Part shown: piece after piece, positions 1-24,702 of the stretch
Layout: the number at the start of each line of letters is the position of its first letter
Position numbering within the stretch: the first letter of the stretch is position 1
Source of the DNA: an uncultured Cyclobacteriaceae bacterium
GTDB taxonomy: Bacteria > Bacteroidota > Bacteroidia > Cytophagales > Cyclobacteriaceae
Direction: 5' to 3'
DNA: 64,000 bases
Assembly (NCBI GenBank): GCA_937146645.1
Contig: CAKZRQ010000057.1
Location: 1-64,000, forward strand
The notes under the pieces: model-generated
The model's input: the letters and a program-made list of their open reading frames with translations, nothing else
Database searches by the model: none
Told to the model about the DNA's origin: nothing
Made by a program: the position numbers and the translations under genes

Positions 1-2124
1 AACTTCTCAGATGCGGTATTGCTTGGAGAACCAGATGAGTTTCAAAATGAGGATCAAGTCTTTAGAGAATTTAATCTCGGCATTCCGGATAGTCTGAAAG
101 GAAAAGAAATTCAATTCAGGTTTCAAATTCGGTATGGAGAAGGTACAGGAACGGCTGCCCGTTGGATCTTGGATGACTTCTGTTATGGAGATTTTGTTCC
201 CGATACTACGCCACCTGAGATTACGGAAGTCCGTGGTTTTGATTTCAATGAAATCCAGGTTGGATTTAGCGAACCCATAGATCCGGTCTTTTCTCAGTTT
301 TTCATCAATTATACCCTTGATGGTATAGAGCCAATAGAAATTGAGTTGGTTAAAAATTCTATCGTCAACCTTCGATTTGAGCAAGACCTTGAAGAAGGAA
401 TAGATTATGAATTGCTCGTTCAGTCTATTTCAGATCTTTCAGGAAATGAAAGTCAGGGTCTAAGCTTTTCGTTTGAGTTTTTTGACCCGACTAACATTCC
501 AAAAAATGGTCTGATCGTAAATGAGCTAATGCCTGCACCAAGATCAGGTAATGATCTTCCTAATTCTGAGTATCTAGAATTGATACACACAGGTGAGAAG
601 TCTTATCGATTGGATTCCGTGATCCTGGAGGTGGAAGAGAGGTCCGTTATACTTCCTGAAGTTTGGATGGAACCTGATGAATTAGTGTTGCTTGTACCCG
701 AAGGTTCTGGAGTTGATTTTTTAGAATATGGGCCAGTGATTGAGTTGGATCCCTGGCTAACTCTTTTGAACTCTGGTGCTATGCTCAAATTAAAAAATGG
801 GCAAGAGTTTATAGATAAGATATCATACTCTTCTACTTCCTGGGGGGATTCTGAATTGGCTAGTGGAGGATACAGTCTTGAAGTAATGAATCCTTTTTTG
901 CTTTGTGATCAGTCACCATTTCTTCAACCTTCGATTGATCCTATGAGAGGAACACCAGGCAAAATCAATTCTGTACTGGATTTAACTCCAGACCAAGACC
1001 CTCCCCGATTACAAAATTTTGGATTCATGAATGCGAATAGTCTCTATTTTGAATTTGACGAGTCAATTTCTGAAAGCGCAGAAGACACGATTCTCGAGCT
1101 GGTTGGATTTACAGGGCTGGATAGCGTGTCGTTTGTTGGAGCCATGGTGACTTTCTATTCTTCGGTTCCTTTTAATGCGAATCAAGTTTACGAAGTAATA
1201 AATCTATCCGTGCTGGATTGCTCTGGAAATGTTTTTGAAGGTCCATTTCCTTTTGAGATGGTCTTCCCAAGGGAGGCTGAAATAGGAGAAGTTTTGATCA
1301 ATGAACTCTTGTTCAATCCTATTTCGGGTACACCCAAATTCCTTGAGTTGGCCAATGCGACTCAGGACTACCTTGAAATTGGAGGTTGGTTTCTTGGGAA
1401 TGAGGATGATTTTGGTGAGGCGAATAGCCTAAAGCAACTATCTGAAAAAAGTTTAATTCTTACCCCAAATTCTTTCCTTGCCATAACTTCAGATACCAGC
1501 AGATTAAAGCTTACATATCCTCAATCTCAGAATGGCAACTTCTTTCAAATCAACTCTCTCCCAAGCTACCCTATTTCCGGTGGCGTAGTCAGGCTTTTGG
1601 ATTCAGGAGTAAGCCCTGCCGATAGGTTCGAGTATAACGAGGATTTACATCATCCTTTGATACGAGATTCAAAGGGAGTTTCACTGGAAAGGATTTCACT
1701 GAAACAGGAAACTCAAGATCCGCAGAACTGGCAATCGGCCGCTGAGGACAAAGGCTTTGCGACACCCGGTGGAGCAAATTCTCAAACCTTCGAAGCTGAA
1801 CGAACGGATGAGTTGATATCCATTGATCCAGAGGTATTTGATCCAGAGGGAAGTAATGGAGAAACATTCACTCAAATCTCCTATTCTTTCGAGCAAAGCG
1901 GTTGGGTGGGTACGTTCAGAATCTATGATTTGAATGGGCGTTTGGTGCAACCGCTGGCAGAAAATGCTGTTCTGGGAACTTCTGGTTTTTACACATGGAC
2001 TGGCACTGATCAAACGGGAACCAGAGTTCCTGTGGGCTACTATGTTCTATTGGTTGAACTTTTCAATCCTTCTGGAGAAACACTAGCCATAAAGAAAACT
2101 ATTGTGATAGCTCGCCGACTATAA
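1..2124 (+). CDS. Secreted lamin-tail-domain protein with FlgD-like C-terminus (5' partial)
   Basis: The frame is open from base 1, so the true start lies upstream; the TTG used by the ORF track is only the first start-like codon. In track numbering there is an Ig-like segment from about residue 62 (DTTPPEITEV), a lamin-tail-like domain from about 160 (GLIVNELMPAP...YLELIHTG), a second Ig-like segment near 325 (DQDPPRLQNF) and a second lamin-tail domain near 425 (GEVLINELLFNP...FLELAN). The end (FRIYDLNGRLVQPL, then GTDQTGTRVPVGYYVLLVEL) is a FlgD-like Ig fold, which in Bacteroidota often ends type IX-secreted or surface proteins. Inferred to be a secreted, possibly surface-bound protein of unknown ligand; no enzymatic motif is visible. 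Confidence 0.8.
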   Translation, partial: NFSDAVLLGEPDEFQNEDQVFREFNLGIPDSLKGKEIQFRFQIRYGEGTGTAARWILDDFCYGDFVPDTTPPEITEVRGFDFNEIQVGFSEPIDPVFSQFFINYTLDGIEPIEIELVKNSIVNLRFEQDLEEGIDYELLVQSISDLSGNESQGLSFSFEFFDPTNIPKNGLIVNELMPAPRSGNDLPNSEYLELIHTGEKSYRLDSVILEVEERSVILPEVWMEPDELVLLVPEGSGVDFLEYGPVIELDPWLTLLNSGAMLKLKNGQEFIDKISYSSTSWGDSELASGGYSLEVMNPFLLCDQSPFLQPSIDPMRGTPGKINSVLDLTPDQDPPRLQNFGFMNANSLYFEFDESISESAEDTILELVGFTGLDSVSFVGAMVTFYSSVPFNANQVYEVINLSVLDCSGNVFEGPFPFEMVFPREAEIGEVLINELLFNPISGTPKFLELANATQDYLEIGGWFLGNEDDFGEANSLKQLSEKSLILTPNSFLAITSDTSRLKLTYPQSQNGNFFQINSLPSYPISGGVVRLLDSGVSPADRFEYNEDLHHPLIRDSKGVSLERISLKQETQDPQNWQSAAEDKGFATPGGANSQTFEAERTDELISIDPEVFDPEGSNGETFTQISYSFEQSGWVGTFRIYDLNGRLVQPLAENAVLGTSGFYTWTGTDQTGTRVPVGYYVLLVELFNPSGETLAIKKTIVIARRL

Positions 2125-2195
2125 AATTTTCTTTTTTCATACAACCCAAGTGCACTAATTTCAGTAAATTAAGTGTGGAATTAACCGAACACCCT

Positions 2196-2366
2196 ATGGA
2201 AAATGACCTAATCACTCAGGCGCTTAAGGATTTGCATATAGCCCAGAACAAATCTCTTAAAGACGTACAAAATTACCTTAGCTTAAGGTATCGAATAGAC
2301 CTCGAATTAAGGGTTTTGGAAATTCGTCTCAGTAAAATCGAGCAAGAAGAAAAAGCCGTCGCCTGA
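2196..2366 (+). CDS. Small helical hypothetical protein
   Basis: A 56-residue protein from ATG 2196; the track's GTG at 2175 would add seven residues. It is charged and amphipathic (RYRIDLELRVLEIRLSKIEQEE), probably a short helix or coiled coil, with no signal peptide or known domain. The stop codon lies inside the hairpin of a strong terminator, so it could be a genuine short gene or simply an open frame in the 3' region of the upstream transcript. Function unknown. Confidence 0.45.
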   Translation: MENDLITQALKDLHIAQNKSLKDVQNYLSLRYRIDLELRVLEIRLSKIEQEEKAVA

Positions 2367-2377
2367 CGGTTTTTTTT
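2351..2377 (+). terminator. Rho-independent terminator
   Basis: Stem CCGTC/GACGG with loop GCCT, preceded by an A-run and followed by eight T. The TGA stop of the small ORF is in the hairpin. It separates the lamin-tail transcript from the dksA-like/scpB unit. Confidence 0.8.
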
Positions 2378-2503
2378 GTGCCAAAGCCGCAATATTACCA
2401 ATCCCCATTCTAGTTTTTGGCTGAAAACTAGAGGGTTGGAAATCATTAGATTATTCACAAAAAAATATCCTAAAATATATTTCCCCGTACAGCCGTTTTA
2501 AGT

Positions 2504-2533
2504 TTGCAATTTTGCCCCGGAAATGTATTTTTA
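2504..2533 (+). promoter_or_regulatory. Candidate Bacteroidota sigma-70 promoter for the dksA-like gene
   Basis: TTG at 2504-2506, then 19 bases, then TATTTTTA, which is one base off the Bacteroidota -7 element TAnnTTTG. The ATG of the DksA-like gene is about 50 bases downstream. Position and spacing fit; the last base of the -7 box does not. Confidence 0.5.
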
Positions 2534-2584
2534 GCTAGCTTTTTCAGAGAAGAAGCCCAGCACTAACAAAAAATAAATACCATT

Positions 2585-2968
2585 ATGAGTGATAGTACTA
2601 AAACAGCATACTCTCCTGATGAATTGAAGGAGTTTGAAGAGATAATCTTGAAGAAACTGGACGTTGCTAAAGAGGAACTTCACATGTTAAAAGATACCAT
2701 TAGTAAAAAGAATTCTAGTGGTACTGATCATACTGCTTCGACTTCAAAACTTCTTGAGGATGGAGCTGACACTCTTGAGAGAGAAAGTATGAATCAGCTA
2801 GCTGCAAGGCAGCAAAAATTCATCATCAACTTAGAGAATGCCTTGGTTCGAATTAAGAATGGAACCTATGGCGTATGCGTGGATACAGGAAATTTGATTT
2901 CTAAAGAGAGACTTCGTGCGGTACCACATACCATGCACTCTATAGCTGCAAAGCTTGCTAAAAAATAA
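2585..2968 (+). CDS. TraR/DksA-family protein lacking the C4 zinc finger
   Basis: 127 residues. The N-terminal half is helical (coiled-coil-like, SPDELKEFEEIILKKLDVAK). The C-terminal half carries the family signature NGTYGVCVDTGNLISKERL...RAVPHTMHSIAAK. Classical DksA proteins have four zinc cysteines here; only one Cys (GVC) is visible, with Thr at the second position and no second CxxC. Known DksA proteins enter the RNA polymerase secondary channel and act with ppGpp; this one probably binds polymerase through a metal-free fold. It lies one base upstream of scpB, so the two are probably co-transcribed. The family call is firm; the regulatory role is inferred. Confidence 0.85.
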   Translation: MSDSTKTAYSPDELKEFEEIILKKLDVAKEELHMLKDTISKKNSSGTDHTASTSKLLEDGADTLERESMNQLAARQQKFIINLENALVRIKNGTYGVCVDTGNLISKERLRAVPHTMHSIAAKLAKK

Positions 2969-2969
2969 G

Positions 2970-3530
2970 ATGGATTTTCTCCATCGTCATATTGAGGCCC
3001 TCATCTTTTGTTCTCCTAATCCACTTCATGAAGAAGATATTCAGAAGTGCTTAACGGAAATGTTTGAAGCTGACATTCCTGAAGCGGATGTCAGTGGAGC
3101 AATAGTGGCGCTCAAAGAAAAATATGACGATGAGGAATTTTCCTTTACGCTTGAGAAGGTCGGTGGGGGATATCAGTTTCTTAGCAAACCGGCCTATCAA
3201 ACTTCCATTGGAATTCTGCTAAAACAGCAGTCTAAAAAACGTCTTTCCACGGCACAGCTTGAAACACTTTCAATAATCGCGTATAAGCAGCCCGTTACAA
3301 AGGGCGACATCGAACAGATTCGAGGTGTCAATAGTGACTATTCCGTGCAAAAGCTTCTTGAAAAAGAGCTTGTTGAAATAAAAGGAAAGTCCGAAGGATT
3401 AGGAAGACCAATTCTATACGGAACCTCAGAAAAGTTTATGGAGTATTTTGGTATCAATTCCATTCAGGACCTGCCTCAGCCAAAAGACTTCGCTAAACCG
3501 GATAACGAAATCGGGGAAGAGAGAGAATAG
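2970..3530 (+). CDS. scpB: Segregation and condensation protein ScpB
   Basis: Non-SMC kleisin-associated subunit of the SMC-ScpA-ScpB condensin complex. I use ATG 2970, directly after the upstream stop codon (2966-2968), giving 186 residues; the track's TTG 2955 lies inside the preceding gene. The two winged-helix halves are recognisable: HIEALIFCSPNPLHEEDI at the N-terminus, and the family hallmark LSTAQLETLSIIAYKQPVTK then IRGVNSDYSVQKLLEK in the second half. Length is normal. scpA is not in the window, so the complex partners are encoded elsewhere. Confidence 0.95.
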   Translation: MDFLHRHIEALIFCSPNPLHEEDIQKCLTEMFEADIPEADVSGAIVALKEKYDDEEFSFTLEKVGGGYQFLSKPAYQTSIGILLKQQSKKRLSTAQLETLSIIAYKQPVTKGDIEQIRGVNSDYSVQKLLEKELVEIKGKSEGLGRPILYGTSEKFMEYFGINSIQDLPQPKDFAKPDNEIGEERE

Positions 3531-11673: not shown

Positions 11674-12576
11674 ATGCACTATCTGGGAATCGATATTGGT
11701 GGCACCAAAGTTAAAACACTCATTTTGAATGAGCAAAGTGATGTGATTCATCAGGATGAAGTTTTTACCGAGGATGGTTCTGGGGAGCTTTGGAAGCAGA
11801 AGATTATTCAAATCCTTAATAGGCAATTTTCAACCTATGGGAAAAGGGAATTGGTTTGTGGAATCTCCGCCCCAGGACTCGTAGATGAAACGAATCGCAA
11901 AACAATGTACATGCCGGAACGGCTTCAGGGAATTGAAAATTACAATTGGTCTGAAGAGCTGGGCCAGGAAATATGGGCGCTAAATGACGGTCATTCTGCC
12001 TGTCTGGCTGAATACGAGAGCTTTTTTAAAAAAGAAGGTGTTCAGAATTTGGTGATGCTCACTCTGGGAACTGGAGTTGGTGGAGGAATTGTCATCAATG
12101 GAGAACTCTACCAAGGGAAGCTTCAGCGGGCTGGTCATTTAGGACATATGACTGCTGACCTCCATGGCCCGAACACCATGACCAATATGCCGGGCAGTCT
12201 AGAGTATGCCATAGGAAACTTTTCAGTTGGCCAAAGAACTGAAGGAAAATTTCAAACGGTACTTGATCTGGTCAAGGCTTTCGAAAATGGAGATGAGATC
12301 GCTAAAAGATTTTGGTATGAAGCGGTGGAGAAACTGGCTGTTTCATTGGCAGGATTAAATAACATTTTAGCACCAGAGGTCATCGTTTTGGGTGGTGGAA
12401 TTACGAAAGGAGCCGGCGATTCCCTTCTTAAGCCACTGGCAGAATTCATGGAAAAATTCGAGTGGAGACCTGGTGGCAATAAAGTCCGAATCGAAACGGC
12501 TAAATACGGAACCTTTGCAGGAGCGATAGGGGCGGCACTTTTCGCCAAAAAACAACACGAAAAAGGAATCAAATGA
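11674..12576 (+). CDS. ROK-family sugar kinase-like protein lacking zinc cysteines
   Basis: 300 residues. ATP-binding GIDIGGTKVKTL at the N-terminus, sugar-binding Asp in WALNDGHSACLAEY, GTGVGGGIVINGELYQG, and the C-terminal glycine-rich PEVIVLGGGITKGAG. The usual ROK zinc motif CxCGxxGCxE is absent: the segment reads GHLGHMTADLHGPNTMTNMP then GSLEYAIG, with no cysteine. It may still phosphorylate a sugar, as some ROK proteins lack zinc. The last four bases overlap the SIS gene (ATGA), implying translational coupling and shared substrate flow. Confidence 0.88.
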   Translation: MHYLGIDIGGTKVKTLILNEQSDVIHQDEVFTEDGSGELWKQKIIQILNRQFSTYGKRELVCGISAPGLVDETNRKTMYMPERLQGIENYNWSEELGQEIWALNDGHSACLAEYESFFKKEGVQNLVMLTLGTGVGGGIVINGELYQGKLQRAGHLGHMTADLHGPNTMTNMPGSLEYAIGNFSVGQRTEGKFQTVLDLVKAFENGDEIAKRFWYEAVEKLAVSLAGLNNILAPEVIVLGGGITKGAGDSLLKPLAEFMEKFEWRPGGNKVRIETAKYGTFAGAIGAALFAKKQHEKGIK

Positions 12577-13352
12577 GTCTTACCAAAGAATACCTAGAGA
12601 AAGGGCGTGAGATAATTTCAACCGTTGAAAAGCAAGAACCGATCATTCAGGAAGTGGCCAAAATCTTTGCTGAATCGATCTTAAATGGGCGAATGGTCCA
12701 TCTTTTTGGCTCGGGTCACAGCCGAATTATGGTGGAGGAAATGTGGCCACGCTATGGTTCATTTCCTGGTTTTAACCCCATCGTCGAGCTTTCACTATCC
12801 TTCCATAATTTGGTGGTTGGTGCCAATGGACAAAGACAGGCCATGTTCCTGGAGAACATTCCAGGACTTGCTGATCGAATCCTTAGGAACTTCGATTTGA
12901 GCACTCAGGATACCGCTTTGGTGATCTCTTCCAGTGGTTGCAATGTGGTGCCTATTGAAATGGCAGAGTTATTTCAAAAAAATGGGATCAAGGTAGCTGC
13001 TTTGGTCAGTAAACTGCATTTGGAAGGAAGTACTTCAAAAAGAGCAGATGGCAAGAAACTGACTGATTTCGCTGACTATGTACTTGACACAGGCGCACCG
13101 CTAGGGGATGCCATGATCTATTTGGATGGATTGGATAGTCCTGTTTCTCCGGGGTCTACTCTTGGTGGCGTCATGATTATCAACACCATTAAAGCTGAGG
13201 TGGCTAAAATTCTTCATGAAAGTGGGCATTCGCCCAAAGTGCTAAGCAGTGGTAAGATAGTGGGAGATAAGAGAGCCGTGGAGCTTTTTGAAAGTGCGTA
13301 TGATGAGCATGCCCATAGAATGGCAAAGCTTTATGAAAATGTTGGGAAGTAA
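12573..13352 (+). CDS. SIS-domain phosphosugar-binding protein
   Basis: 259 residues, single SIS domain of the type once called UPF0309. The phosphosugar loop is GRMVHLFGSGHSRIMVEEMW and a second one is DTALVISSSGCNVVPIEMAELF. SIS enzymes isomerise or cleave phosphosugars; this subgroup has no assigned reaction I can name. Translational overlap with the ROK kinase-like gene suggests it acts on that enzyme's product. Cytoplasmic. Confidence 0.88.
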   Translation: MSLTKEYLEKGREIISTVEKQEPIIQEVAKIFAESILNGRMVHLFGSGHSRIMVEEMWPRYGSFPGFNPIVELSLSFHNLVVGANGQRQAMFLENIPGLADRILRNFDLSTQDTALVISSSGCNVVPIEMAELFQKNGIKVAALVSKLHLEGSTSKRADGKKLTDFADYVLDTGAPLGDAMIYLDGLDSPVSPGSTLGGVMIINTIKAEVAKILHESGHSPKVLSSGKIVGDKRAVELFESAYDEHAHRMAKLYENVGK

Positions 13353-13378
13353 ACCTATTTGAAGAACACTTAAACTCT

Positions 13379-14743
13379 GTGGATATGAGTTTTTCTCCAG
13401 TCATTCAGAAAAGTTACGACACCGATATTCTGATAATCGGAAGTGGAAGCGCCGGATCTGTTGCAGCTTTGGCGGCAGCCGATTCCAAGTACAAGGTTAC
13501 CTTGGTGGAACGCTACGGATTTCCAGGTGGAACGTCCACCCAAATGCTGGATACTTTTTATGGCTTTTACACCCCTTCAGAGAGTCCAAGGAAGATCGTG
13601 GGTGGGATTCCTGATCTGATCGTTAATCAGCTGAATAAATCTGGAGATATTTTCCTTCGACCTAATACCTATGGGGCGGGAACAGGTGTGAATTATAATC
13701 CGGAGCGATTAAAACTGGTTTGGGATCAGCTTTTCGCGACTCGTGGAGTAGAGGTTTTCTATCATAGCACCCTTGTGGGAGTCGAAGATACTTCTGAAGT
13801 AAAGAGCTGTGTGTTTTTTTATAAAGGTCTAGGGTTTTTCCGGATTCGAGCGAAGCGAGTGATTGATGCCTCTGGCGATGCGGATTATTGCCGATGGGCA
13901 GGCTTGCACTTTGAGAGGGCCGGCGAAAAGGAACCCGCGCAAAGTTTGACCACCACCTTCCGAATGAGCAATGTGGATTTGGAAGAGTTTGAACACGCCG
14001 GTGGAAAAAAGATGCTGAAAGAAAAGATGTCGGAGGCTTTCAATTCTGGAACCCATGCGCTACCCAGAAAAGAGGGATCCGCACACGAAATGTGCCAGCC
14101 AAAATGCATTTCTACTGTGGCCGTGAAGGTGGTGGATCGAAACGCTCTAGATCTAAAAGAACTGACTGAAGCAGAAATTGAGGGTAGGAAACAGTCATTT
14201 ATCTACGAGGAGTTTTTCAGGGATATGGTGCCCGGTTATCAGAATTCAAAGGTTATTGGCCTATCGCATCAGATTGGCGTGAGAGAGACAAGAAGAGTCT
14301 ATGGCTTGCATCGTTTGACCAAGGAAGATTGTATGAGTGCCAAGACTTTTGAGGATCAGATTTTCCTTTGTGGAGCTCCGATTGAAGATCATAGGAAGAC
14401 TAAAAATGGCTCAGAAACATATTGGCAGTATGTTCCGGATGGAGGAGTTTATGGAGTACCGTATGGGACTATTGTGCCTCGGGAAAGTGAGAATACCTGG
14501 GTGGTGGGAAGATGTTTTTCTGCGACTCATGATGCGCATGCTTCATGTCGATCTATGGCGCAAACCATGAGTATGGGGCAGGCTGCTGGTTTTGCTGCAG
14601 TGATAACCTTGGATGAGGATCAGGATGCAAAGGACATTTCCATTTCCACACTTCAATCAAAAATTATTCAAAATGGGGGCATTCTAGAAATGCCTGAAGA
14701 GATCGCAGATACCAGCCGAGATGGATGGGGTAAATATTTGTAA
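13379..14743 (+). CDS. FAD-dependent oxidoreductase (FAD_oxidored type)
   Basis: About 454 residues. N-terminal dinucleotide fold DILIIGSGSAGSVAALAAA, then KVTLVERYGFPGGTSTQML, matching the PF12831-like family often found in Bacteroidota carbohydrate loci. C-terminal FAD region: NTWVVGRCFSATHDAHASCR and MSMGQAAGFAA. The start may be GTG 13379 or ATG 13385. No signal peptide. Probably oxidises a sugar-derived intermediate; the electron acceptor is unknown. Confidence 0.88.
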   Translation: MDMSFSPVIQKSYDTDILIIGSGSAGSVAALAAADSKYKVTLVERYGFPGGTSTQMLDTFYGFYTPSESPRKIVGGIPDLIVNQLNKSGDIFLRPNTYGAGTGVNYNPERLKLVWDQLFATRGVEVFYHSTLVGVEDTSEVKSCVFFYKGLGFFRIRAKRVIDASGDADYCRWAGLHFERAGEKEPAQSLTTTFRMSNVDLEEFEHAGGKKMLKEKMSEAFNSGTHALPRKEGSAHEMCQPKCISTVAVKVVDRNALDLKELTEAEIEGRKQSFIYEEFFRDMVPGYQNSKVIGLSHQIGVRETRRVYGLHRLTKEDCMSAKTFEDQIFLCGAPIEDHRKTKNGSETYWQYVPDGGVYGVPYGTIVPRESENTWVVGRCFSATHDAHASCRSMAQTMSMGQAAGFAAVITLDEDQDAKDISISTLQSKIIQNGGILEMPEEIADTSRDGWGKYL

Positions 14744-14749
14744 GAAAAC

Positions 14750-15712
14750 ATGGAGAAGACTTTTTTCAGAACAGTTTTGGGAGATTTTCCCTCTGAACAA
14801 ATGGGATTAACCTATGCTCACGAGCATATCATCATCGAAGATTCCTATGTGACTGCAAAGCACCCTGAGTTCTTATTGAATGATATCGGTAAAATTTCAA
14901 CCGAGCTCAAGGAGTTCTACGATGCGGGTGGACGAACTGTAGTAGACACAATGCCTTCAAATTCGGGAAGGAATGTCCTAAAATCTGCGGAATTGACGAG
15001 GCTAACGGGAGTTCGGATTATCGTTCCCACCGGCATTCATTTGGAGATTTATTATCCAGAAAACCACTGGCGATATTCCATATCTGAGGATCAACTGACC
15101 GAGCTATTTATAGCTGATATTGAAAAGGGAATTGATGAGTTTGATTACACAGGGCCTTTTGTGAAGCGGACTGGGCATAAGGCGGGTATGATCAAATTGG
15201 CTACGGGTGATCAAAAGTTTTCAAAGCATCAGGAGATGGTCTTTCAAGCTGTTGTCAATGCTCATCTAGCTACAGGTGCACCTATTTTGACGCATACTAA
15301 CTTTGGCCGACAGGCCTATGAGCAGGCAAAACTTTTCGAAAAGCTAGGCGCAAAGCTAGACCATGTGGTGCTTTCGCATGTGGATAGAGCTAAGGAAGTG
15401 GATTACAATCGGAAGGTTCTGGATGTAGGCGTGAGGCTGGAGTATGATAGCGCATTTCGATGGGGGCTAAAGAATGAGCCGAATTATACTTTGCAGTTGG
15501 TGGAGAATCTGGCTCCGGAGTTTCCAGAGCAGATAGTGATGGGTATGGATATGGCGAAGAATGCGTATTGGAAGAGTTATGGAGGCCAACCAGGACTGAA
15601 TTACCTCATTGAAACGATGCCTGAATTTTTAAATGAAAGAGGATTAAGTGAGCATTTTCAAAAAATATTTTTTGATAATCCTAAACGTTTGTATAGCTTT
15701 TTTAAAGTATAA
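14750..15712 (+). CDS. Phosphotriesterase-family lactonase-like metal hydrolase
   Basis: 320 residues of the amidohydrolase superfamily. Visible metal ligands: HEH at residues 24-26 (TYAHEHIII), bridging Lys in GMIKLATG, His in ILTHTNFG and VVLSHVDR, Asp in VMGMDMAKNAYW. Characterised bacterial relatives (COG1735) hydrolyse sugar lactones, some phosphorylated. Last gene of the operon, six bases after the FAD gene. Inferred role: open a lactone made by one of the dehydrogenases. An organophosphate substrate is unlikely in this context. Confidence 0.88.
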   Translation: MEKTFFRTVLGDFPSEQMGLTYAHEHIIIEDSYVTAKHPEFLLNDIGKISTELKEFYDAGGRTVVDTMPSNSGRNVLKSAELTRLTGVRIIVPTGIHLEIYYPENHWRYSISEDQLTELFIADIEKGIDEFDYTGPFVKRTGHKAGMIKLATGDQKFSKHQEMVFQAVVNAHLATGAPILTHTNFGRQAYEQAKLFEKLGAKLDHVVLSHVDRAKEVDYNRKVLDVGVRLEYDSAFRWGLKNEPNYTLQLVENLAPEFPEQIVMGMDMAKNAYWKSYGGQPGLNYLIETMPEFLNERGLSEHFQKIFFDNPKRLYSFFKV

Positions 15713-17462: not shown

Positions 17463-17508
17463 GCCTCCAAAGTACTAAGGTATTTAAGACTCTAATAGCG
17501 CTGAGGAT

Positions 17509-17605
17509 AAACGACCATACTAATTGTATGAACGACCAGAAAATCAATTAATGGTCGTTTAAACTCGTTTCCTGCCTATTTACATAGTATTTGAGTCGTT
17601 TAAAT
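17509..17605. promoter_or_regulatory. Cluster of GTCGTTTA-like motifs, candidate LytTR sites
   Basis: Four copies in 97 bases: AAACGACCAT (17509-17518) and AACGACCA (17531-17538) as seen on plus, then inverted ATGGTCGTTT (17551-17560) and GTCGTTTAAA (17595-17604). A weaker TCGTTT sits at 17565. LytTR regulators bind short repeated elements of this kind; the position between the LytTR pair and the thioredoxin gene fits. Binding is inferred. Confidence 0.55.
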
Positions 17606-17664
17606 TCGAGGCTTTGTCCTTCGATTTTCACCCTCTATGATTGAGGAAAACAAAATCGAAAATC

Positions 17665-18588
17665 ATGAAAGCGAATTACAAAAAACTCTTCTGGCTGGTA
17701 CCAATTTTCATCTTAATAATCAATGTAAGTGTGGCTACTTCCTTCAGTCAGTTTATCTACTTTTTCTTTGAAGGATCCATGATCGCAATCACTCTTTGTG
17801 GCATTGTTTGGTTAACATGGACAAAGAATATTAAGGGAGAAGCCGGGAAATGGCTAGGAGCCAGCCTTTTTATTCTACTGGTTCTTACTCACATCACCCG
17901 GATCATCTGGCTTTGTATTCGTGGAGGAAATGAAATCCTTCTCAAGCATTTTGTACGAACTGATCTTATGGAACCTACTATTGAGCATTTTGTAGGAAGC
18001 TTGGTTGCCGCATTGGTGGTTTCATTTCTTATTTGGCTTTTCAGGCTACCTAAAAAACAGCTTATAAAAGTAGGAGGAACTGTAGGGGGATTAATTCTCA
18101 CAGGGGCTCTGACCTTCACTTGGTATGTGAATCGTGACCTAAGCTCGGATGAAATTTTCTTCCAGTATGGAATTACAGATCTTGATGGAGTACGTGGCTT
18201 GGCTCAAGAAAAAGGTAAAACTCTCTATGTAGATTTTTGGCACTCGGGCTGTAAGCCATGCATAGAGCAATTCATGGTGCATCAGGAATTTAGTTCTCAG
18301 GTGGACCATGGGAACGTCCATTTTCTCTTTGTCGGGGCAGATTTGTCAATGCCGGGCGAGAAGCAAAGACAGAGACTTATCGTGGAAAAGTATGATTTGA
18401 AAGGAACCCATGCCTTCGTTTCAAGAGAGGCATTTGCGGAGATTCTTGATTCCGCGGGCTATTTGGATAGCGTACATGGGACTAAGGCTTTTCCCCATTA
18501 TATGATTTTAGACTCAGCAGGAGAAGTAGTAGAAATAAAGGCAGGAAAGCCTTCTCGTCTTGTTGCACAAAGGTTGAATTCATTATAG
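17665..18588 (+). CDS. Membrane-anchored thioredoxin-like protein
   Basis: 307 residues from ATG 17665 (MKANYKKLFWLVPIFI); the track's 17641 start is TTG. About five transmembrane helices occupy the first 170 residues, followed by a thioredoxin fold with the redox motif in VDFWHSGCKPCIEQF and a cis-Pro-like FPHYMIL. Likely orientation puts the thioredoxin domain in the periplasm, for disulfide reduction or exchange. Transcribed away from the LytTR pair and ended by a strong hairpin. The electron donor is not encoded nearby. Confidence 0.85.
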   Translation: MKANYKKLFWLVPIFILIINVSVATSFSQFIYFFFEGSMIAITLCGIVWLTWTKNIKGEAGKWLGASLFILLVLTHITRIIWLCIRGGNEILLKHFVRTDLMEPTIEHFVGSLVAALVVSFLIWLFRLPKKQLIKVGGTVGGLILTGALTFTWYVNRDLSSDEIFFQYGITDLDGVRGLAQEKGKTLYVDFWHSGCKPCIEQFMVHQEFSSQVDHGNVHFLFVGADLSMPGEKQRQRLIVEKYDLKGTHAFVSREAFAEILDSAGYLDSVHGTKAFPHYMILDSAGEVVEIKAGKPSRLVAQRLNSL

Positions 18589-19276: not shown

Positions 19277-20122
19277 TCAAATACTTGCTGAATTGGACAG
19301 CCGATATTCTCGTGGGGAGATTTTATATTTTTGCTGGAAATTCGCAGAAAATGTTGTGGGATCCACGAAGCCACAATCGTAAGCTATCGCTGAAATGGGA
19401 TCCTTGGTGGTGATTATTTTTTTGGCTGCCTTTTCTAGTCTTTGGGACTTAATATATCTGGCAGGACTCTCATTGAATTCCTTTTTAAATTCCCTCTTGA
19501 ATTTAGAGAGGCTCATGTGGCATATGAAAGCCAACTCTTCAATACTCAATGGATTGAATAGATTTTGCTCAAGTGCTTTTCGGAATTCATGGTTAACAGG
19601 ACTGAATATGTCGGTGAGAAGTGTCCGAACACTTTGATGATTTGCAGATTTCAGCAAAATCATGATCAGTTCCTTGAGCTTTAAAACGCCAAGTTCCTCA
19701 TCCAAGGCCTCAGGTTCTTCGAAGTAAATGGTGAGATTCTTTATGTACTGCTCGATCAGCTTGTTGCCAATAAATTTTTCTGGCTTTCTGCTGACTTCCT
19801 GTTTAAGGGAAGAAGGAAGCTCGTCTTTAAAAATTGACTGGAGCATCTTTGGGTATAGATACACCGCTATGGCCTCTACCTCATCTGAGTTTTCGTTGGG
19901 TCTAAACTTCTGAACATAATTATTGCAGTTTTTGATCACTGCTTCATTCATGCTAATGATGTGTTCACCTCTTGAGTCATAGGAGTACATGTTTCCTTCG
20001 GTGATGTAGAAAAAGCAAGCGAAATCCTGGATGGTACCCTGCGATCCAAAAGGGGCTTTGATTCGCATTTTTTGGAACAAGGGCATCCCCTTGAATTCTA
20101 TGATCTCATTTTTTAGAATCAT
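19277..20122 (-). CDS. AraC-family transcriptional regulator
   Basis: 281 residues. The C-terminal double helix-turn-helix is typical: LSIEELAFICHMSLSKFKRE and DPISAIAYDCGFVDPTTFSANFQQKYKISPREYR. The N-terminal half is a cupin-like sensing domain (FACFFYITEGNMYSYDSRGEHI). Target unknown; the SRPBCC gene downstream on the same strand is one candidate, the GH16 gene upstream another. Confidence 0.92.
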   Translation of the reverse strand: MILKNEIIEFKGMPLFQKMRIKAPFGSQGTIQDFACFFYITEGNMYSYDSRGEHIISMNEAVIKNCNNYVQKFRPNENSDEVEAIAVYLYPKMLQSIFKDELPSSLKQEVSRKPEKFIGNKLIEQYIKNLTIYFEEPEALDEELGVLKLKELIMILLKSANHQSVRTLLTDIFSPVNHEFRKALEQNLFNPLSIEELAFICHMSLSKFKREFKKEFNESPARYIKSQRLEKAAKKIITTKDPISAIAYDCGFVDPTTFSANFQQKYKISPREYRLSNSASI

Positions 20123-22041: not shown

Positions 22042-22854
22042 TTACATCCGAATTTGGCCATATTTCAAGATTCCTACAAAAATGGTTCCACCCAATACAT
22101 TGCCCAGCGTGGCCCAAACCTGAAAATTGACATAATCTATCAACCTGATTTTCTCACTTGTCATAAGACCAGCCAATACTTCGATGGAGCCGACGATACA
22201 GTGATGTAATCCTGCTAAACCAATTACAAAAGTCACCAAAATAATAACGAAAATCCTACTCAAGCTGTCTTTTGAAGAAGTAACAAGCCAGCCTAAGAGC
22301 CCCATCATCCAACCAGCTAGGATTGCACTCACAAGAATAGTACTCCAGTCATGGTCAACCATTTTATCCGCTAGATGGAAGAATGAGTTTATTTCAATAA
22401 AACCGACGGACGGACCAATTTTAATCAGAAGAAGGGAAAAAATTAATCCTCCTAAGAGGTTGCCTACATAGACTAGGGACCATAGAGAGATTAGACTTCT
22501 TATCGTAACTGAGCGATTTAAAACGGGAAGCAATGCAAGAGCTGTATGCTCTGTAAAAAGTTCAGAACGACCAATTATGACAAAAATGAAACCTAACGGA
22601 TAAGAGAGCGCAAGTAGAACGGTTAAAAGTTCAGGGCTAGTGTTCCCTCCGAAAAGTGTGTAGAGGGTTCCCATCAAAAGCACACTGAATCCAATCTCGA
22701 GACCAGCAATGAAGGCAGAAATAAACAGATTGGTATTTGATCTCTTAAACTCTTTTAAGCTTGCAGCAATTTGTTCTTCCAATATCTCTTCTGATTCTTT
22801 TGGCTTGGACTGCGGTTCAATTTTTTTCTTCTGTTCAAAAAGCTTTTTAATCAT
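22042..22854 (-). CDS. Formate/nitrite transporter (FNT) family membrane protein
   Basis: 270 residues with a charged N-terminal tail (QKKKIEPQSKPKESEEI) and six hydrophobic segments. FNT-type features: SNTNLFISAFIAGLEIGFSVLL, PLGFIFVIIGRSELFTEHT, VGNLLGGLIF, GLAGLHHCIVGSIEVLAGL and WATLGNVLGGTIFVG. It belongs to the YfdC-like branch with a long N-terminus; substrate (formate, nitrite, hydrosulfide or none) unknown. Divergent from the two-component cluster. Confidence 0.88.
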   Translation of the reverse strand: MIKKLFEQKKKIEPQSKPKESEEILEEQIAASLKEFKRSNTNLFISAFIAGLEIGFSVLLMGTLYTLFGGNTSPELLTVLLALSYPLGFIFVIIGRSELFTEHTALALLPVLNRSVTIRSLISLWSLVYVGNLLGGLIFSLLLIKIGPSVGFIEINSFFHLADKMVDHDWSTILVSAILAGWMMGLLGWLVTSSKDSLSRIFVIILVTFVIGLAGLHHCIVGSIEVLAGLMTSEKIRLIDYVNFQVWATLGNVLGGTIFVGILKYGQIRM

Positions 22855-22974
22855 TTTGGTTCTCTAATTTTTCCTTCTGTAATGGTCGGAAGAATCATGC
22901 CATTAAATGAATGTGGGTTAATAGCCCAGTTATCTTAGACTTTGAGCTTATATTGTAGAATTATTACACAGTTT

Positions 22975-23331
22975 ATGGGGATTCTTGTTGTAGATGATGA
23001 AGCGGATATCCGGCACATGATAACAGTTTTTCTAAAAAAATCTAATAGGGAGGTTATTACTGTAGGGACTTTTAGCGAAGCTAAAGAAATGCTGATTAGC
23101 CATAATTTTGATTTACATTTCCTGGATTTGAATTTACCTGATGGTACCGGTTTTGATTTGATTCCCTTTGTACGAAAGAAATATAATTATTCGAGGATCA
23201 TCGTGATGAGTGCCTACCACAATGAATCTGAGATGATTAGAGCACAAGAGTTGGGAGCAGATATGTTTTTAAAAAAACCATTTAGCAAGGTCCAAGTGCT
23301 GAATGCAGTTAATAATTTTTTATCTGAATAA
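22975..23331 (+). CDS. Stand-alone response regulator receiver domain
   Basis: 118 residues from ATG 22975 (MGILVVDDEADIRHMI); the track's start at 22942 adds an unsupported TTG extension. Receiver only: acidic pair in VVDDEAD, phospho-acceptor Asp in LHFLDLNLPDGTG, Thr/Ser in VMSAY and Lys in FLKKPFSKVQ. No output domain, so it probably works in a phosphorelay or by protein contact with the kinase two genes downstream. Three bases separate it from the sigma-54 activator gene. Confidence 0.92.
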   Translation: MGILVVDDEADIRHMITVFLKKSNREVITVGTFSEAKEMLISHNFDLHFLDLNLPDGTGFDLIPFVRKKYNYSRIIVMSAYHNESEMIRAQELGADMFLKKPFSKVQVLNAVNNFLSE

Positions 23332-23334
23332 GCA

Positions 23335-24702
23335 ATGCAAAAAATTTTAATAATCGACGACGAACAGGATATCTGTACACTATTAAAACGATTTTTTGAA
23401 AAGAAAAATTTTCAGGTTAGTACTGGACTTTCTGGTAAAGAAGGTCTTAAAATGATTCAGAGTGAAGCCTTTGATTTAGTTATATGTGATTTTAGACTAC
23501 CGGATCATACGGGCTTGGAGATGCTGGAGAGAATCAAGATTCTTCAAAAAGACCTTCAGGTTATAATAATTACTGGATATTCGGATGTCCGAATTGCTGT
23601 GGAGGCCTTAAAAAAGGGAGCATTCGATTATGTTACGAAACCGCTATATCCTGACGAAATATTATTGACGGTAAATAAAGCCTTGAATAAGGAAAATGTC
23701 ACTCAGTATAAATCCAAATCTGGGGCAAAGAAGAAGCAAAGAAAAAACTTTATTGTTGGAGCAAGTCGTCCATCACAGACTGTCCGGAATCATATTGATC
23801 TAGTTGCTCCAACGGATTTATCCGTGATTGTTACGGGAGAAACAGGAACTGGTAAGGAATTCGTTGCAAGGTCTATTCACGAAAAAAGTAACAGAAGCGG
23901 TAAAAGTTTTGTGGCTTTGGATTGTGGGGCACTTCCTCAGGAACTGGCTGGAAGTGAACTTTTTGGACATATAAAAGGGGCTTTCACGGGTGCAGTTTCG
24001 GATAAAACTGGCTGCTTCGAACTAGCCTCCGGCGGTACATTATTCCTAGATGAAATAGGTAATCTTTCTTACGAAAATCAAATCAAGCTTTTGAGGGTTT
24101 TGCAGGAAAGGGTCATAAAAAAGGTAGGGGGAACGAAAAATATTCCAGTAGATGTGAGGTTAATAGCGGCTACGAATGAAGACCTTAAATCTGCTGTAAG
24201 AGAAGGAGATTTCAGAGAGGACCTTTATCACAGACTTAATGAATTCAGCATACCACTAGCCCCACTTAGAGAAAGAAAGGAGGATATTATTCTTTTTTCC
24301 AATCACTTCTTAAAGGAGTCCAATGAGAGGCTTGGAAAAGCTGTTGAAACTTTTGATCCTGACGTTCTTGAACTCCTTTCCGCCTATCCTTGGTATGGGA
24401 ATCTGAGGGAATTAGGCAATGTGATTCGTCGATCAGTTTTACTATCCTCAGGAAAAAATATTAGTTCTTCCACCATTCCTTTAGAGATCAAAAATCCAGA
24501 TTCTGAAGGGTCGCGAATAAATGATTCTTCAGCTTTTTATAGAGGAAAAACATTAAAAGAGGTTGCCGCATTGGCGGAGGCCAAAGCTATTCGGTCGGCC
24601 ATGGAAGCGACAAATAACAATAAGTCTGAAATGGCGAGGCTTTTAGGTGTGGATAGAAAAACTCTCTACAACAAACTCAAATCCTACAATATTGACATCT
24701 AA
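23335..24702 (+). CDS. Sigma-54-dependent response regulator (NtrC/AtoC type)
   Basis: 455 residues in order: receiver ([12 protein letters not shown], Asp in [13 protein letters not shown]), AAA+ domain with Walker [10 protein letters not shown], the sigma-54 contact loop GAFTGA, Walker [13 protein letters not shown] and R-finger region, and a Fis-type HTH at the end ([22 protein letters not shown]). It activates RNA polymerase holding sigma-54. A matching -24/-12 promoter lies in front of the ytxH gene downstream, suggesting the adjacent stress genes are its regulon. Confidence 0.96.

Follow-up and report, generated by a model that had tools for sequence, protein, structure and literature searches.

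A conserved 21-bp repeat register suggests a LytTR operator between a kinase-regulator operon and a divergent membrane thioredoxin gene

Is the cluster of short repeats that separates a LytTR two-component operon from a thioredoxin gene an operator, and if so, of which protein and for which genes? In the window (i.e.: the whole 64-kb stretch of DNA analysed here), the array has the kinase-regulator operon on its left, on the minus strand, and the thioredoxin gene on its right, on the plus strand. The operon encodes a LytS-class histidine kinase (PF06580; 16413-17462, minus strand) whose N-terminal part has about four TM segments, and a receiver-LytTR response regulator (PF00072 and PF04397; 15727-16431, minus strand) whose gene overlaps that of the kinase by about 19 nt. 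The PF04397 match of the regulator reaches 61.7 bits against a cut-off of 22.6, and the LytTR DNA-binding domain that a LytTR operator calls for is hence present in the cognate regulator. The divergent gene (17665-18588, plus strand) encodes a membrane protein of about five TM segments, whose C-terminal thioredoxin domain is ResA/TlpA-like and bears the motif WHSGCKPC. We set its start at the ATG at 17665; an in-frame TTG also lies upstream, at 17641. No Pfam or NCBIfam family covers its membrane part. The structure model of the thioredoxin was of moderate confidence (mean pLDDT 75.6, pTM 0.46), while that of the kinase, of low confidence in its sensor part, was left out of the analysis. Five TM segments following an N-in start would place the thioredoxin domain in the periplasm.

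An earlier note on this DNA had described two inverted and two direct copies of about 10 bases within 97 bases, and this description was correct, the measured span being 17508-17602. The repeat search returned a direct pair 21 bp apart on the minus strand (17507/17528) and, inverted relative to it, a direct pair 41 bp apart on the plus strand (17554/17595). Facing the kinase are half site A (ATGGTCGTTTA, 17508-17518, minus strand), the proximal one, and half site B (CTGGTCGTTCA, 17529-17539, minus strand), 21 bp from A; the registers of both are matched in three orthologs. Facing the thioredoxin gene are the distal half site C (ATGGTCGTTTA, 17551-17561, plus strand) and the proximal half site D (TGAGTCGTTTA, 17592-17602, plus strand), which ends 10 bp before a -33-like box. 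The four sites thus stand where the note had placed them, but its count overlooked a fifth register, D' (CTGCCTATTTA, 17572-17582, plus strand), a degenerate thioredoxin-facing half site, weak alone, which lies 21 bp from C and 20 bp from D. Together, A, B, C, D' and D form a five-register grid with steps of 21, 22, 21 and 20 bp, in which the degeneracy of D' accounts for the 41-bp spacing between C and D.

Taken alone, the copy number of the array is weak evidence, since some 10-mer occurs at least four times within two mismatches in 28% of dinucleotide shuffles of the intergenic region (278/1000). A stricter count, of some 9-mer present four times within one mismatch, is reached in 15 of 1000 such shuffles. 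The motif GTCGTTTA occurs three times in the window, always within the array (17508, minus strand; 17554 and 17595, plus strand), for an expected count of 0.9 per window, and at least three copies were obtained in 6 of 100 shuffles. At the scale of the 4.3-Mb genome, a search by pattern alone (best matches listed first) found GGTCGTT-N14-GGTCGTT with no mismatch once, at the array. Other exact matches to TGGTCGTTTA were considered as further sites and discarded: among the matches listed they fall inside open reading frames, one of which has just 92 codons. It is the register and its conservation, and not the number of copies, that make the array convincing.

Conservation was assessed in three full-length kinase orthologs, which a search of 397 genomes of the family turned up in three other genera: G270 (L128; 46% identical), G390 (L129; 40-41%) and G262 (L130; 42%). 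The kinase-regulator gene overlap is the same in the three, and a divergent membrane thioredoxin gene (39-42% identical) is present at all three loci. No close kinase ortholog was found in the 60 other genomes of the same genus that were searched, the contig search giving distant kinases only, and no close thioredoxin ortholog in 75 other same-genus genomes; the orthologs' own genera, samples of the order, class and phylum, and relatives of G262 yielded no further close orthologs. This patchy spread of the three-gene module suggests horizontal transfer or repeated loss. A more distant relative of the module is found in G115 (L131; coordinates 272-1285 and 1444-3206), with a kinase-LytTR pair, the kinase being 28% identical, and a divergent CKPC thioredoxin frame, the N-terminal part of which is in a different frame in that assembly. 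The intergenic region of G115 is similar in length, yet the 21-bp pair is not evident at equivalent positions.

At all four full-length loci, positions 46-56 and 67-77 from the kinase ATG are occupied by two direct repeats, the distance between them being exactly 21 bp. Their letters are AAACGACCAT/GAACGACCAG in the window, AAACAGCAGG/AGACAGCATC in G270 (core ACAGCA), AGACAACATG/AGGCGACATG in G390 (cores GACAACAT/GGCGACAT) and AATCGACGAG/CAACGACAAT in G262 (core AACGAC), that is, alike within a locus and different between loci. The joint score of the pair over the four loci was 33 out of 44, compared to a shuffle mean of 23.2 and a maximum of 29 in 2000 shuffles, in each of which every period and position was searched. 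The signal holds when the window is left out: the three orthologs score 23 out of 33 at period 21, a value reached in none of 2000 shuffles at that period and in 3 of 2000 at any period. The earlier note had proposed conservation of the array beside orthologous LytTR pairs as a check on its reading, and the outcome is favourable, with the pair found in 3/3 full-length orthologs while its letters drift. Agreement within loci together with drift between them is as would be expected of a co-evolving regulator and operator. The LytTR domains of the window and G262 are the most alike (50%), and the AACGAC core is common to both loci. The kinase-facing pair is the best-conserved part of the array.

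On the thioredoxin side, we scanned for triples with steps of 20-22 bp, using a matrix built from the kinase-side copies. Scanned with each locus's own matrix, the window and G270 have their best thioredoxin-facing triple at 89/110/130, and G390 and G262 have theirs at 90/111/131; in each of the three orthologs the best middle member lies at the offset of D'. With a leave-one-out matrix, the triple was significant in the window (p 0.01) and in G390 (p 0.001) and not individually so in G270 and G262. Three registers, C, D' and D, spaced by 21 and 20 bp, would face a single promoter, with a degenerate middle member and significance in two loci, the window and G390.

Promoters were sought with the Bacteroidota consensus, in which TAnnTTTG is the -7 element of the phylum (PMC9723704); a scan for E. 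coli-type promoters had given chance-level results and was abandoned. The candidate thioredoxin promoter (17613-17643, plus strand) consists of TTTG (17613-17616), a 19-nt spacer and TATGATTG (17636-17643), and agrees with 9/10 consensus positions, a match that about 6% of shuffles equal when the window region is taken alone. In the three orthologs the best candidates lie at the equivalent place and score 9, 9 and 8. Half site D ends 10 bp before the -33-like box of this positionally conserved candidate and does not overlap that box. The kinase side is weaker: a candidate -7 box (TACTTTGG, 17467-17474, minus strand), accompanied by a weak -33-like element, ends 4 nt before the kinase ATG and would therefore leave a very short leader, and leaderless mRNAs amount to just 5.5% in a flavobacterium (PMC9723704). 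The TAnTTT element about 4 nt before the kinase ATG is found in the window, G270 and G390 and is poorer in G262; counted back from the ATG, columns 7-9 and 11-12 are invariant in the four loci. A perfect 9-bp inverted repeat (TTCGATTTT/AAAATCGAA; 17620-17628 and 17652-17660, 23 nt apart) spans the candidate -7 box and the leader of the thioredoxin gene, and could be an RNA hairpin, another operator or chance.

The same period recurs in other operons. Among the periods scored upstream of the kinase in 33 other, non-redundant kinase-LytTR operons, 21 stands out as the strongest, with a mean best match of 7.24/11 versus about 6.2; six of these loci match at least 9 positions at period 21, and no other period has more than two such loci. 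In clean control genes the excess at this period is smaller (6.62 vs 6.24), and the excess of LytTR operons over controls is significant (permutation p 0.003). The signal is then part generic and part specific to LytTR operons, and period 21 across LytTR pairs was rejected as decisive proof, since control genes carry a smaller excess of their own, which may reflect helically phased promoter DNA or operators that went unrecognised. Locus-specific 21-bp direct repeats can be seen in several Bacteroidota kinase-LytTR operons (e.g. L034, L042, L043, L053 and L155), such as AAATGTGACAG, present twice in L042 and L043, and GATGACGAACA/GATGACCAACA in L053. These data suggest that autoregulation may be widespread among kinase-LytTR operons of Bacteroidota.

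How does the array compare with known operators? LytTR sites described in the literature have no letters in common and consist of direct or inverse repeats, 9-11 nt long, separated by spacers of 11-13 nt (PMC4847170), and direct repeats of this size with such spacers, about 21 bp from start to start, are what A, B and their orthologous counterparts display, beside the regulator gene in 3/3 full-length orthologs. In AgrA P2/P3, YpdB at yhjX and VirR at pfoA, as in the array, two direct repeats of about 9-11 nt lie upstream of the promoter at a distance of two helical turns from each other, with no universal consensus letters (PMC4847170, PMC4227749), the centre of the AgrA pair being near -60 (PMC4227749). 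Unlike these, the array is shared by two promoters with sites facing both ways, its letters are locus-specific and its target would be a membrane thioredoxin. The repeats of LytTR Regulatory Systems are 9 bp long, mostly with 12-bp spacers, and show a strong bias to 10 bp upstream of -35; positive feedback or autoregulation is found, and letters drift while geometry is kept (PMC6193735). HdrRM, BrsRM and their relatives resemble the array in their 12-bp-spaced repeats about 10 bp upstream of the -35 box of their own promoter, their drifting letters and their kept geometry (PMC6193735); they pair a regulator with a membrane inhibitor, whereas the window has a kinase and a receiver domain. The receiver domain of the regulator and its PF06580 kinase partner rule out a LytTR Regulatory System of the HdrRM type. 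Three direct repeats about two helical turns apart, as in the apparent thioredoxin-facing triple, are known from CoxC/RcoM, the three of CoxC being spaced at 18-21 bp (PMC11347149); CoxC and RcoM differ in being one-component sensors, with a CoxC operator that lies over the -35 box and represses. The thioredoxin itself shares with ResA/TlpA-like membrane thioredoxins a CxxC-bearing domain that is probably extracytoplasmic, yet has about five predicted TM segments instead of a single anchor. In size, spacing and position, the geometry of the putative operator is a close fit to published LytTR operators, and the array would belong with them.

From these data, we consider it likely that the array serves as operator for the LytTR regulator encoded beside it, which would autoregulate its own operon and co-control the periplasmic thioredoxin. 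The conserved register and the published repeat size, spacing and position support the earlier note's view of the array as a LytTR operator, with binding as the putative step. A grid of 21 bp corresponds to two helical turns, so that regulator molecules, once bound, could stack along a single face of the helix; A and B read toward the kinase-regulator operon, and the thioredoxin gene is faced by C, D' and D. In the likeliest scheme, the regulator would, when phosphorylated, bind just upstream of both promoters and activate both, and the outcome would be positive autoregulation of the operon and co-induction of the periplasmic membrane thioredoxin. Binding by the regulator, its dependence on phosphorylation, activation over repression and any stimulus are what we infer from the arrangement of sites and genes. 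We counted against this reading that the orthologs are just three, that the triple falls short of individual significance in two of them, that D' is degenerate, that control genes also show an excess at period 21, that G115 has no clear pair, and that the kinase side has a poor -33 box and a very short predicted leader.

Some of these observations would also suit an operator controlling the kinase-regulator operon only, or repressing, with auxiliary thioredoxin-facing copies and a thioredoxin gene that is no target. The kinase-facing pair is the best conserved, the triple is individually significant in 2/4 loci, and LytTR repressors exist, as exemplified by CoxC with its three repeats over the -35 box (PMC11347149). 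However, the divergent thioredoxin is kept in all orthologs, C and D are good copies facing its gene, and D stands 10 bp before a conserved promoter candidate with no overlap with the -33-like box, and we consider this alternative unlikely.

The array might instead serve a different DNA-binding protein, either a global regulator or the product of the AraC-type gene that lies 2 kb from it (19277-20122), binding by the LytTR regulator being inferential. Yet the kinase-LytTR-thioredoxin module is accompanied by the operator in different genera, the operator's 21-bp direct-repeat geometry is of the published LytTR type and the strict pair is found nowhere else in the genome among the matches listed, which makes another protein very improbable. 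Chance repeats within a short intergenic region would explain the copy number, which 28% of shuffles reach, and the three GTCGTTTA copies, reached in 6 of 100, but hardly an exact 21-bp register at the equivalent position in three diverged orthologs, and we give coincidence almost no credit. Returning to the operator of the adjacent LytTR regulator, a bolder version of it can be formulated, that we hold to be rather doubtful: the five sites, phased by 20-22 bp, two facing one promoter and three the other, would act as a single cooperative switch, tying the LytS/LytTR pair to a dedicated periplasmic five-TM thioredoxin within a patchy three-gene module, and the thioredoxin would feed back on the envelope state sensed by the kinase.

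Whether the pair senses redox through thiols can be asked from its cysteines. No invariant cysteine was found in the alignments of kinase or regulator from the four orthologs, and a thiol-based redox-sensing two-component system was rejected on the lack of conserved sensing cysteines in both proteins. The pair may still receive redox input by some other route. Any link to redox would come solely from the predicted nature of the divergent thioredoxin gene.

These Bacteroidota genomes carry LytTR two-component pairs in abundance, and we found little literature on the operators of such pairs. The array offers a precise candidate operator and a candidate target for one of them, and connects a particular kinase with a so far uncharacterised membrane thioredoxin. 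A practical rule may also be drawn from it: because letters drift while the 21-bp register stays, such operators should be sought by period and position across orthologs, and not by consensus. Elsewhere in the window, ROK-family, SIS-domain, FAD-dependent oxidoreductase and phosphotriesterase-family genes, all on the plus strand (11674-15712), form what looks like a small catabolic operon, and at 22042-24702 a formate/nitrite-type transporter gene is divergent from genes for a stand-alone receiver and a sigma-54 activator of the NtrC type.
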